This document shows, one piece after another, positions 8,484 to 37,268 of a stretch of 64,000 nucleotides of DNA. A program made the position numbers and the translations under genes. The stretch lies in NCBI RefSeq assembly GCF_017352095.1, contig NZ_CP071463.1, positions 1,922,001 through 1,986,000 of the forward strand, given 5' to 3'. This DNA is from Natrinema longum (lineage in GTDB: Archaea; Halobacteriota; Halobacteria; Halobacteriales; Natrialbaceae). Position 1 is the stretch's first letter. Each line of letters begins with the position of its first letter. The notes under the pieces are model-generated. The model saw only the letters and a list, made by a program, of their open reading frames with translations, was not told the origin of the DNA and searched no databases.

Positions 8484-9151
8484 TCCTGGCCGCGGGCCGG
8501 GGTCGACGCATGGGCCACCACACCGACGATGTCCCGAAAGCCTTCCTCGAGTTCGACGGCCGGACGCTGTACGACCGACAGCGCACCCTGCTCGATTCAC
8601 ACGTGGACGGAACGAGCATCGTCCTCGGGTATCGCCACGAGACGGTCCTCGACAGGTACGATCCCGACGATCCGCTCGTCCTCGAGGGGTGGAACCGCTA
8701 CGAAAACGCCGCGTCGCTACTGCTGGCGCTCGAACGCATTCCGGACGATCTGCTGGTCATGAACGGCGACGTTCTCGTCGACGAGCGCGAGATCGGTCGG
8801 CTCGTGGGGACGTTCGAGTCCCTCACGGGACGTCTCAACCTCGTCGGCTGTATCCCGGGGCTTCAGGCCGACGAGACGGCGGTTCGCTGGGACGAGTCGG
8901 GTCGGGTGACGGAGTACGGACTCATCGAGGGCCACCAACACGCCGGGTTCGGTATCGTGAGCTGCGCTCACCGGACGGCGGCGATCCGGACCCTCCGAGA
9001 GCGACTCTCCGACTGGTATCCCTGCGTCTACCCTCGGATGCCGACCCGACCACTGTTGATCCCGGCCGAGCGACACATCGAGGTCAATCGCCCCGCCGAC
9101 CTCGAGCGGGCCCGAGCGTGGCTCGCATCCGAACGGATCCGGTCTGCGTGA
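8471..9151 (+). CDS. Sugar-phosphate/polyol-phosphate nucleotidyltransferase
   Basis: This encodes 226 aa starting MRGVILAAGRGRRMGHHTDDVPKAF, the glycine-rich NTP-binding loop with the trailing conserved Lys of NTP_transferase enzymes. A metal-binding Asp sits in LLVMNGDVLVDEREIG. The short single-domain form without a beta-helix tail resembles LicC/GlmU-type cytidylyl- or uridylyltransferases. It overlaps the CDP-glycerol glycerophosphotransferase-like gene, suggesting it makes the activated CDP- (or UDP-) donor for that enzyme. The base specificity cannot be read from sequence. Confidence 0.82.
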   Translation: MRGVILAAGRGRRMGHHTDDVPKAFLEFDGRTLYDRQRTLLDSHVDGTSIVLGYRHETVLDRYDPDDPLVLEGWNRYENAASLLLALERIPDDLLVMNGDVLVDEREIGRLVGTFESLTGRLNLVGCIPGLQADETAVRWDESGRVTEYGLIEGHQHAGFGIVSCAHRTAAIRTLRERLSDWYPCVYPRMPTRPLLIPAERHIEVNRPADLERARAWLASERIRSA

Positions 9152-35730: not shown

Positions 35731-35990
35731 CTTCTCCTGCTCGTCGCCTGCGAGGCGGCCTGGGGCTCGATGCTTCCGACTTCGCACTCGGTGATCGCTC
35801 CTCCCGTACTCGGCGACCTCCCGTCCCGTTCAGGTGTGACAGCCGACGGTTTTCCGCTGAACGGTGCCGGGATCAGTGTGGGAACTCTGTTCGCTCCGAC
35901 GGCGGACATCGGCACAGACAGGACGTCTACGTATCACCTCCGACCGACAACTGGCATGTGGTGGCGCGCGCCGTGCCGCGGTGAGCTACT

Positions 35991-36086
35991 GTGAACCGCG
36001 GCTCGAAGCCGTGCGAGGGACGAACGAGCACAGCGAGTGAGTCGGTTGGGGAGGGAGTGGCCACTCCCCGTTGCCACGATAACAGG
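35991..36086 (+). repeat. Dispersed repeat, copy A
   Basis: The core TCGGTTGGGGAGGGAGTGGC (36042-36061) recurs with one or two changes at 51113-51132, and the companion motif TGCCACGATAACAG (36072-36085) recurs at 51143-51156 with the same 30-base offset. A GAACCGCG box lies upstream in both. The same spurious peptide (WQ.G.ATPSPTDS) appears on the minus strand at both sites. It is in the intergenic space after the SPW gene. Confidence 0.7.
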
Positions 36087-36145
36087 ACCTCTCTAACAGG
36101 ACGCCACCTTCTGGTGGTCTTTCGCTTCGAACGGGTCGTTCCATG

Positions 36146-36166: not shown

Positions 36167-36260
36167 GTTCGCGGGCGATTTCGCCGACGACTACCGTGTG
36201 TCGGTAGCCGCGACCGGACTCGAGGCCCGGTTCCGAGCCGACCGGCCGGTCGATCGTATC

Positions 36261-36294
36261 GACGGCGTGGTGGTGTCGACGGCGTGGTGGTGTC
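36261..36294 (+). repeat. 17-bp perfect tandem duplication
   Basis: GACGGCGTGGTGGTGTC occurs twice in immediate succession (36261-36277, 36278-36294). It lies in non-coding sequence just downstream of the small zinc-finger gene. Confidence 0.8.
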
Positions 36295-36353
36295 ATCGAC
36301 TCGCGACGGCGACCGGTCGACTGCTCGTCGGGGCTCGAGCGCCGAGCCCCGGG

Positions 36354-36596
36354 TTACTCGCCGGTCCCGTCGTCGCGCTCGTGATGGACGCTGGTGTCGC
36401 TCTCGTGGTGAATGCCGCTATCGCGCTCGCGGTGGATCAGCCCAGGTGCGACCGAACAGCCACAGGGCCTGACGACGCCGGTATGGGGCCCGGTCGACGT
36501 CAGCCCGGTGATGGGCTGGCCGCAACTGGGACACGAGAGCAGCGCCGAGTCGTCCACTCGTCGGTCATCGCCAGCCGTCGTCTCCTCGCTACACAT
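36354..36596 (-). CDS. Small CPxCG-type zinc-finger protein
   Basis: This encodes 80 aa (MCSEETTAGDDRRVDDSAL). A CPSCGQPITGL knuckle near residue 22 and a CGC pair near residue 45 provide Cys ligands for one zinc, the pattern of the many small haloarchaeal zinc-finger proteins. The His- and acid-rich tail (GLIHRERDSGIHHESD) might also bind metal. Function unknown; such microproteins often modulate stress or motility regulation in haloarchaea. Confidence 0.65.
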   Translation of the reverse strand: MCSEETTAGDDRRVDDSALLSCPSCGQPITGLTSTGPHTGVVRPCGCSVAPGLIHRERDSGIHHESDTSVHHERDDGTGE

Positions 36597-36665
36597 CGCG
36601 ATCGCACCTCCCGATCGAGCGCGGCGTCGAGACTGGTCGCGTCTGGCGATTCTGTCGTCGTGCGG

Positions 36666-36680
36666 GACGTTTATATCCCG
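36666..36680 (+). promoter_or_regulatory. Strong TATA-like promoter element
   Basis: GACGTTTATATCCCG contains a TTTATAT box (36670-36676) centred 25 bases before an ATG at 36698 and has no annotated downstream gene. Position and composition are those of a leaderless haloarchaeal transcript. Confidence 0.55.
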
Positions 36681-36697
36681 GTAGAATCAACGTAATC

Positions 36698-36808
36698 ATG
36701 CTTCGAAACCCTCGTGGGTTTGGAAGCGAGTCTCGGGTGCCACTACACCCGGGGCATTTCGATACAGCCCCCTCGTCGCTGGAGACCGGCTTCCGATTTC
36801 CTGTTTGA
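36698..36808 (+). other. Leaderless 36-codon ORF or structured small RNA
   Basis: An ATG at 36698 opens MLRNPRGFGSESRVPLHP and runs 36 codons to TGA at 36806. The same DNA folds into two adjacent hairpins: GCTTC/GAAGC plus AAACCC/GGGTTT around a TCGT loop (36700-36727), and CTCGGGTG/CACCCGGG around CCACTA (36732-36753). A possible third pairing joins GGGGC and GCCCC. A TATA box lies at the right distance upstream. I cannot tell a basic microprotein from an sRNA; the stem strength favours RNA, the intact frame from the first ATG favours protein. Confidence 0.45.
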
Positions 36809-36953
36809 CTCGTTGTGACTTATATCTACTGCCAATCGGACGTAACGAGGTCGGACCAGGTGCGCCCTCGAGACGACCGGCGAGCTATGAAACTCGAACC
36901 CGGGGACCGACCGTCGGCGCTCGAGGGAACTCGACGCGGCATCGGTTCGCGTC

Positions 36954-37268
36954 CTAGATCCAGTTCTCGGGGAGTTCGTCTCGGTGGTTCACCATCAACT
37001 CCAAGAGCGGTCTGATCTCGTCGAACTGTGGCCCCTTCGTCACCTCGTGAGTATCTCGGTCCCAGTTGATGAACCCGTAGTCTTCCAACAGCGGCAGATG
37101 CGTGTGTTCCATCTCGGTGAGAAGTGCTTCCAGTTCCTCGTCGGTCGTTTCAGTATCGCCGATGTATAGTTTCGAGTCGTCCTCCGGATTGTGGTCTAAC
37201 ATATGGACTAACAACCGACGACGTTGAATACTCGAAATTGATCGGAAAAACCGGTCGACCTTTGACAT
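36954..37268 (-). CDS. Winged-helix DNA-binding protein (DUF7344/ArsR-like)
   Basis: This encodes 104 aa starting MSKVDRFFRSISSIQRRRLLVHML. A winged-helix fold is suggested by the helical opening, LEALLTEMEHTHLPLLEDYGFINWDRDTHEV (recognition helix and wing), and a C-terminal dimer helix. The HTHLPLLEDYG phrase also occurs, as THLPLLEEHE, in the gene at 53439. Haloarchaeal regulators of this group have no known ligand. Lower GC content near its start gives AT-rich promoter sequence around 37280-37300. Confidence 0.78.
   Translation of the reverse strand: MSKVDRFFRSISSIQRRRLLVHMLDHNPEDDSKLYIGDTETTDEELEALLTEMEHTHLPLLEDYGFINWDRDTHEVTKGPQFDEIRPLLELMVNHRDELPENWI

Follow-up and report, generated by a model that had tools for sequence, protein, structure and literature searches.

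A probable bistable cis-regulatory leader RNA with putatively uORF-coupled zinc-ribbon translation in haloarchaea

In PMC8241225 (2021), the fluoride riboswitch of Thermococcus kodakarensis, a cis-acting leader thought to act on translation, is cited as the only experimentally determined natural archaeal riboswitch; the haloarchaeal riboswitch cited there is solely a predicted, c-di-AMP-like one. Structured ribosomal-protein leaders, among them that of S15, are known in Halobacteria (PMC7247131), and Haloferax volcanii possesses very small proteins with CPxCG-type cysteines, the C(P)XCG micro-proteins (PMC11241148; PMC6562870). Overlapping gene pairs proved mostly strictly coupled in experiments in H. 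volcanii and Escherichia coli (PMC6728339). In the ppe2 B12 riboswitch of Mycobacterium tuberculosis (PMC11260477), a structured leader is followed by a short uORF, the stop codon of which overlaps the start of the gene after it (AUGA), and the main gene is translated by termination-reinitiation.

A 64,000-nucleotide stretch of the Natrinema longum chromosome (hereafter, the window) contains a locus, unannotated in the relative that was checked, which probably encodes on its minus strand a bistable cis-regulatory leader RNA followed by a uORF to which translation of a zinc-ribbon gene would be coupled. We regard it as a new leader family because Rfam offers no match, overlapping genes are coupled in Haloferax and ppe2 provides an analogue of the uORF relay. 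At the gathering score, Rfam has zero matches in the window; permissive thresholds return hits at chance level (E 0.8-2.1) with no credible family among them, and the window holds no tRNA or tmRNA. As far as Rfam and open-access papers go, the RNA is apparently undescribed.

The leader and its two predicted pairings

At the level of sequence, comparison among copies establishes the strand and the position of the promoter, the set of helices, and the operon with its start/stop overlap; from this arrangement we infer switching between the two forms in the cell, control of translation by that switching, and a signal behind it. The RNA would be the roughly 95-nt 5' leader of a minus-strand mRNA, folded into a three-way junction (P4, P3 and P2) and a hairpin, P1 (Table 1).

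Table 1. Elements of the proposed unit, in window coordinates
Feature	Position	Strand	Remark
Predicted leader promoter: BRE-like CAGTAG and TATA box ATATAAG	36819..36831	-	fixed distance from P4a
P4a (C-GGAAGCCGGUCUCC), first of the two closing-helix strands	36781..36795	-	predicted to begin at or next to +1
P3 hairpin, GGGGCUG...AUGCCCC	36751..36771	-	compensatory pairs; conserved GAAA on the 3' side
P2 hairpin, CGGGUG-(6-7 nt loop)-CACCCG	36734..36751	-	stem invariant in 54 divergent copies
P4b, GAGACUCGCUUCC	36722..36734	-	partner P4a or H1b
P1 hairpin, AAACCC/GGGUUU	36706..36721	-	from aligned copies
H1, alternative long hairpin, GCUUCC...GAAGC	36700..36727	-	directly before the AUG; family-level three-way covariation
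uORF, 36 aa, MITLILPGYKRPARRQNRQTRPVSTPRSIGRCDRDV	36589..36699	-	start at conserved CATG; basic, short
H0 hairpin, CGGGAU-AUAAAC-GUCCCG, uORF codons 7-12	36663..36680	-	antisense of the TATA-like box of the first-pass annotation
Shine-Dalgarno-like GGGAGGTG of the zinc-ribbon gene	36605..36612	-	motif within the uORF
Zinc-ribbon micro-protein gene, 80 aa, CPSCG...GP...PCGC	36354..36596	-	from family alignment
Conserved 3' region, Natrinema copies	36190..36353	-	GGGGCUCG/CGAGCCCC hairpin after the zinc-ribbon stop

In the structure alignment of 54 divergent copies, 88.3% of cells are paired and 58 show changes on both sides, a count for which shuffles give 23.1 +/- 3.5 (none of 500 reached the real value); when the partner strand is slid, pairing falls to 48% at most. 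P3 alone occurs as GGGCAU/AUGCCC, GGGCGU/ACGCCC, GGACGU/ACGUCC and GGGCAC/GUGCCC. The three-way junction thereby presents the aptamer-like, covarying domain in a 5' UTR that is expected of a riboswitch. The P2 loop (36740-36745 in the window) is 6-7 nt long and hypervariable on its invariant stem, and loops such as CTGGAAC and GAACCAG are nearly reverse complements, as if the loop could flip. An alignment of three families, A3, was dropped for modelling, its P4b being too poorly registered.

TATA bases occupy fixed positions, 26-29 counted from P4a, in about 137-142 of 155 copies, as compared with 3 of 155 in control windows. A distance of 26-29 nt is usual between an archaeal TATA box and the transcription start. 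The start is therefore predicted at P4a, its exact position probably being near 36795 on the minus strand. In some copies on Haladaptatus plasmids (e.g., L208, upstream of 1501), a palindrome, ACCATATCCCATGTGGGATATGGT, sits between TATA and the RNA start; these palindromes differ from copy to copy, like private operators.

Two stretches are complementary to P4b (GCUUCC), namely P4a and the bases that immediately precede the AUG of the uORF. The second pairing, H1, corresponds to the first of the hairpins proposed by the first-pass annotation, on the opposite strand, and would hide the start codon. Within Natrialbaceae alone this helix is 72% paired and covaries no better than slid controls. 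In the distant homologues found with the covariance model R1, sequences differ and the P4a, P4b and pre-AUG strands change together, giving the sets GGAAGCC/GGCUUCC/GAAGCC, GGAAGACC/GGUCUUCC/GAAGACC and GGAAAGCC/GGCUUUCC/GAAAGCC; in one more group the strands are GGGAAC/GUUCCC, and some of its members have AACCC ahead of the AUG, and a further set, CGGAGGCCAG/CUGGCUUCCG, includes L255 and L256 of the genome studied here. L255 and its relatives carry a nine-pair hairpin, GCUUCCGUA/UACGGAAGC, that ends at the AUG. Contiguous pairing averages 5.94 in the real sets versus 3.98 in shuffled ones, a value reached by 1.5% of shuffles, with six P4b types only entering the comparison. The predicted energy difference between the forms averages -3.0 +/- 3.35 kcal/mol in favour of P4 (113 copies), and this copy is predicted at -53.3 versus -50.5 for the two forms. 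Covariation of three strands between families, weak within Natrialbaceae, and close energies make this a candidate expression platform, in which mutually exclusive helices would control initiation.

In the proposed mechanism, transcription would start about 26 nt downstream of the TATA box, at P4a, and the leader would fold into the three-way junction, in which P4 closes P3 and P2, and then into P1. When P4b pairs back with P4a, the uORF start codon would be open; when P4b pairs forward with the GAAGC directly before the AUG, the start codon would be hidden. Translation of the short, basic uORF would then feed the overlapping zinc-ribbon gene through termination-reinitiation.

The uORF and the genes behind the leader

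The uORF of the window begins MITLILPGYKRPARRQNR, and its stop overlaps the zinc-ribbon start by 8 nt. For 128 copies with a CxxC ORF at the end of the uORF, the offset between that end and the start of the second ORF is -4 (ATGA) in 66 copies, -8 in 51, -11 in 6 and +1 or -1 in the other 5, which gives 117 of 128 with the -4 or -8 overlap; these counts lean towards overlap, since the script picked the start nearest to it, and independently listed starts agree. In the scan, 32 of 160 copies lack a CxxC ORF at the uORF end, some of these loci being cut or followed by other gene types. A Shine-Dalgarno-like motif stands ahead of the second ORF in 113 of 123 copies and ahead of the uORF in 58 of 123. 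An overlap combined with a Shine-Dalgarno motif inside the upstream ORF is the structure expected of a termination-reinitiation pair.

Coding constraint is distributed unevenly along the uORF. Codons 2-6 show some of it, with a synonymous fraction of 0.302 in frame against out-of-frame values of 0.191 and 0.217; it is absent from codons 14-20; and in the H0 codons the third positions are the most conserved. This pattern suggests that the uORF counts less for the peptide it encodes than for being translated and for the RNA structure it contains. H0 has 90.7% of cells paired and both sides changed in three of its six pairs. This conserved coding-region structure keeps a constant distance to the AUG; codons 9-10 of the uORF are UAUAAA, CAUAAA, CUUAAA or CAAAAA in 150 of 153 Natrialbaceae copies, and many distant copies have a loop of the UUGAA type.

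In the zinc-ribbon family alignment, CPxC, P and CGC are invariant. AlphaFold predicts with confidence a beta-hairpin core alone, at residues 21-50 (pLDDT about 87-90); the protein has no Pfam or NCBIfam match above cut-off, and Foldseek found no significant structural relative. With 80 aa, one CPxCG and a CGC, set against the under 70 aa and two C(P)XCG motifs of the C(P)XCG micro-proteins, it falls outside a strict definition of that class, although it looks like a zinc ribbon. The conserved region after its stop, which in Natrinema copies also has paired GCCGGCCGGUCGG blocks, is possibly a regulatory 3' UTR or a terminator. The neighbouring minus-strand gene at 36954-37268 belongs to DUF7344 (PF24035, E 4.9e-8) and is probably unrelated to the unit, because the copies most similar to this one do not share its region.

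Elsewhere, the leader precedes PCGC zinc ribbons, CxRC-CCPDC fingers, HalOD1 proteins, SWIM zinc-finger proteins (many of these copies on Haladaptatus plasmids), a PadR regulator (L202) and phage-type integrases. Copies of the SWIM group have no uORF: there, the AUG behind the leader is the start codon of the main gene. The gene downstream of L256 looks PadR- or winged-helix-like by eye and has no Pfam hit, which leaves L202 as the only PadR supported by Pfam.

It is conceivable, though we hold it only tentatively, that these leaders constitute a native riboswitch class of Halobacteria in which one shared signal (an ion, a metal or a metabolite) gates zinc-finger, regulator and recombinase operons, often via a uORF relay; under the same tentative reading, one architecture would recur from once to 25 or more times in a genome, on chromosomes and plasmids as well as on at least one viral contig. 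The name riboswitch, in the strict sense, depends on a ligand. A leader bound by a protein, for example by the zinc-ribbon protein itself, would be autoregulated and respond to protein instead of sensing a ligand. Most copies lie ahead of small zinc-binding proteins, zinc ribbons can bind RNA, the Foldseek hits, though weak and non-significant, are for the most part ribosomal zinc ribbons, and ribosomal-protein leaders have the Halobacteria precedent cited above; however, the downstream families listed here are unrelated, so one self-binding protein cannot serve all copies, and we judge this explanation unlikely.

A still less probable explanation is that the leader is released as a trans-acting RNA, for instance as the partner of a zinc protein, and that its position before a gene is secondary. 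A hypervariable P2 loop on an invariant stem does resemble the recognition loops of antisense or kissing RNAs, but the AUG lies directly behind the alternative helix, which changes together with P4 between families, and this fits control in cis. A type-I-like toxin-antitoxin arrangement was also considered and set aside, the conservation being explicable without an antisense partner transcript.

Distribution of the copies and strand of the RNA

The unit is dispersed, with about 160 copies collected in Natrialbaceae (Natrinema and relatives). A DNA search with window positions 36600-36860 gave many dispersed matches within the genus, five of them in this genome, where at least 5 copies are found by DNA match or motif and 6 and 8 by the covariance models. 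A motif scan of public genomes returned at least 120 stretches; the 80 records among the matches listed are all from Natrialbaceae, including Natrinema, Natrialba, Halovivax, Halopiger, Halostagnicola, Natronorubrum and other genera. The covariance model R1 finds the leader in 82 of the family's 125 genomes (24 of 29 genera), scoring up to 25 matches in a single genome, and the broader R2 matches 197 of 392 genomes of the order Halobacteriales (64 of 95 genera) and none in a 247-genome sample of the phylum outside the order; E-values here are rough and the copies are related, so the counts are not independent. Phage records contain no DNA match to the unit. A viral contig, L051, carries the leader at 8513-8647 in front of an unknown gene; an integrase-like and a SWIM-like protein are encoded there too.

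Two distant homologues lie in the window's own genome: L255 (G000:C1:2586647-2586796), with an integrase-like gene downstream after small ORFs, and L256 (1337402-1337547), which precedes the small winged-helix-like protein. The leader and SWIM zinc-finger genes are greatly expanded on Haladaptatus plasmids, e.g., at 29 places in NZ_CP085339.1. A separate dispersed repeat at 35934-36088 of the window (CGGCTCGAAGCCGTGCGAGGGACGAACGAGC...) is also seen, in either orientation, close to other copies of the unit.

Such dispersal, with flanks that the copies do not share, large numbers on plasmids and one viral contig, would also be expected of a dispersed repeat or miniature mobile element with palindromes and no regulatory role. 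Wobble covariation on one strand, fixed promoter spacing and preserved frame overlaps are unexpected of a non-functional repeat, and mobility and regulation can coexist; a repeat or mobile element and nothing more is accordingly very improbable.

The first-pass annotation placed a promoter-driven, leaderless microgene on the plus strand. Its elements can all be read from the sequence: the TATA-like box TTTATAT at 36669-36676, an ATG at 36698-36700 at a good spacing from it, a 36-codon frame ending in TGA at 36806-36808, and both hairpins, at 36700-36727 and about 36730-36755. That the sequence is real and not due to chance follows from the fold scores (z -3.8 for the plus strand, with 0 of 200 shuffles as stable, and z -3.1 for the minus strand, also beyond chance), from the hairpin-2 motif, which occurs once in the window against 0.00 expected, and from the conserved, multi-copy family.

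The strand is a different matter. P4 pairs 0-3 contain 102 minus-strand G-U versus 7 A-C among the aligned copies (about 160 distinct), and P3 pairs 0-4 contain 65 versus 11; the RNA is assigned to the minus strand by this asymmetry, by the constant spacing of 25-26 nt between the TATA box and the first helix, and by gene order. Whole-sequence MFE disagrees: of 152 copies, 110 have the lower value on the plus strand, where hairpin 2 can be lengthened by U.G pairs, and we judge the comparison confounded by this lengthening. The annotation was thus right about a conserved, structured RNA that has a promoter of its own and includes a tiny ORF, and wrong about the strand. Sequence conservation in relatives and compensatory changes in the helices, which the annotation had proposed as a check, are found; the plus-strand frame is not conserved. 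Its lengths span 15-78 aa over the 10-90% range of copies, and the frame beginning MLRNPRGFGSESR ends after 15 codons in L002 and meets a stop at codon 6 in another copy. The supposed promoter at 36669 is the loop of H0 within the minus-strand uORF, and in distant homologues it is replaced by UUGAA and similar sequences that are not TATA-like. The ATG persists because it is part of the palindrome CATG, where the minus-strand uORF starts. Seen from the plus strand, a second TATA-like element, TTATAT at 36819-36825, lies downstream of the 36-codon frame and ends the conserved block.

An initial idea, a plus-strand sRNA divergent from the zinc gene with a TATA box flanked by a covarying operator, was dropped because P4 and P3 have their G-U pairs on the minus strand and the palindrome falls inside the uORF at a fixed spacing. 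A plus-strand sRNA or leaderless microprotein driven from 36669, in spite of its good TATA/ATG spacing, its stable fold and the lower MFE in most copies, is the least credible reading, given A-C where the minus strand has G-U, a frame and a TATA-like loop that are not kept, and promoter spacing and operon order that match the minus strand.

Comparison with known systems

About half of the Halobacteriales genomes sampled contain the leader, frequently as multiple copies (up to 25 or more per genome), and Rfam lacks it. If confirmed, it would represent a large native class of RNA switches in salt-loving archaea, a group without any proven one. It would offer a native system for work at molar salt on RNA switching and on translation coupled to a uORF, and would open a way into unannotated zinc-ribbon gene families; its predictions are direct and testable.

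Like the T. kodakarensis fluoride riboswitch (cited in PMC8241225), the minus-strand leader would be an archaeal cis-acting element affecting translation; unlike it, it precedes other genes and matches no Rfam model in the window. With the S15 leader (PMC7247131) it shares a structured cis-regulatory character within Halobacteria, whereas that leader stands ahead of ribosomal protein genes and this one ahead of zinc-ribbon, SWIM, PadR and integrase genes. The zinc-ribbon protein shares with the C(P)XCG micro-proteins of H. volcanii (PMC11241148; PMC6562870) very small size and CPxCG-type cysteines; it differs by its single CPxC(G) and single CGC, by occurring as several paralogues per genome and by the leader RNA that these have in common. 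Among working systems, the ppe2 riboswitch (PMC11260477) comes closest. The leader described here has no match to the B12 riboswitch of Rfam, would begin at the aptamer-like helix itself and exists in many copies per genome; yet it has the same succession of a structured leader, a short uORF and a stop overlapping the next start, from which the main gene of ppe2 is translated by termination-reinitiation.
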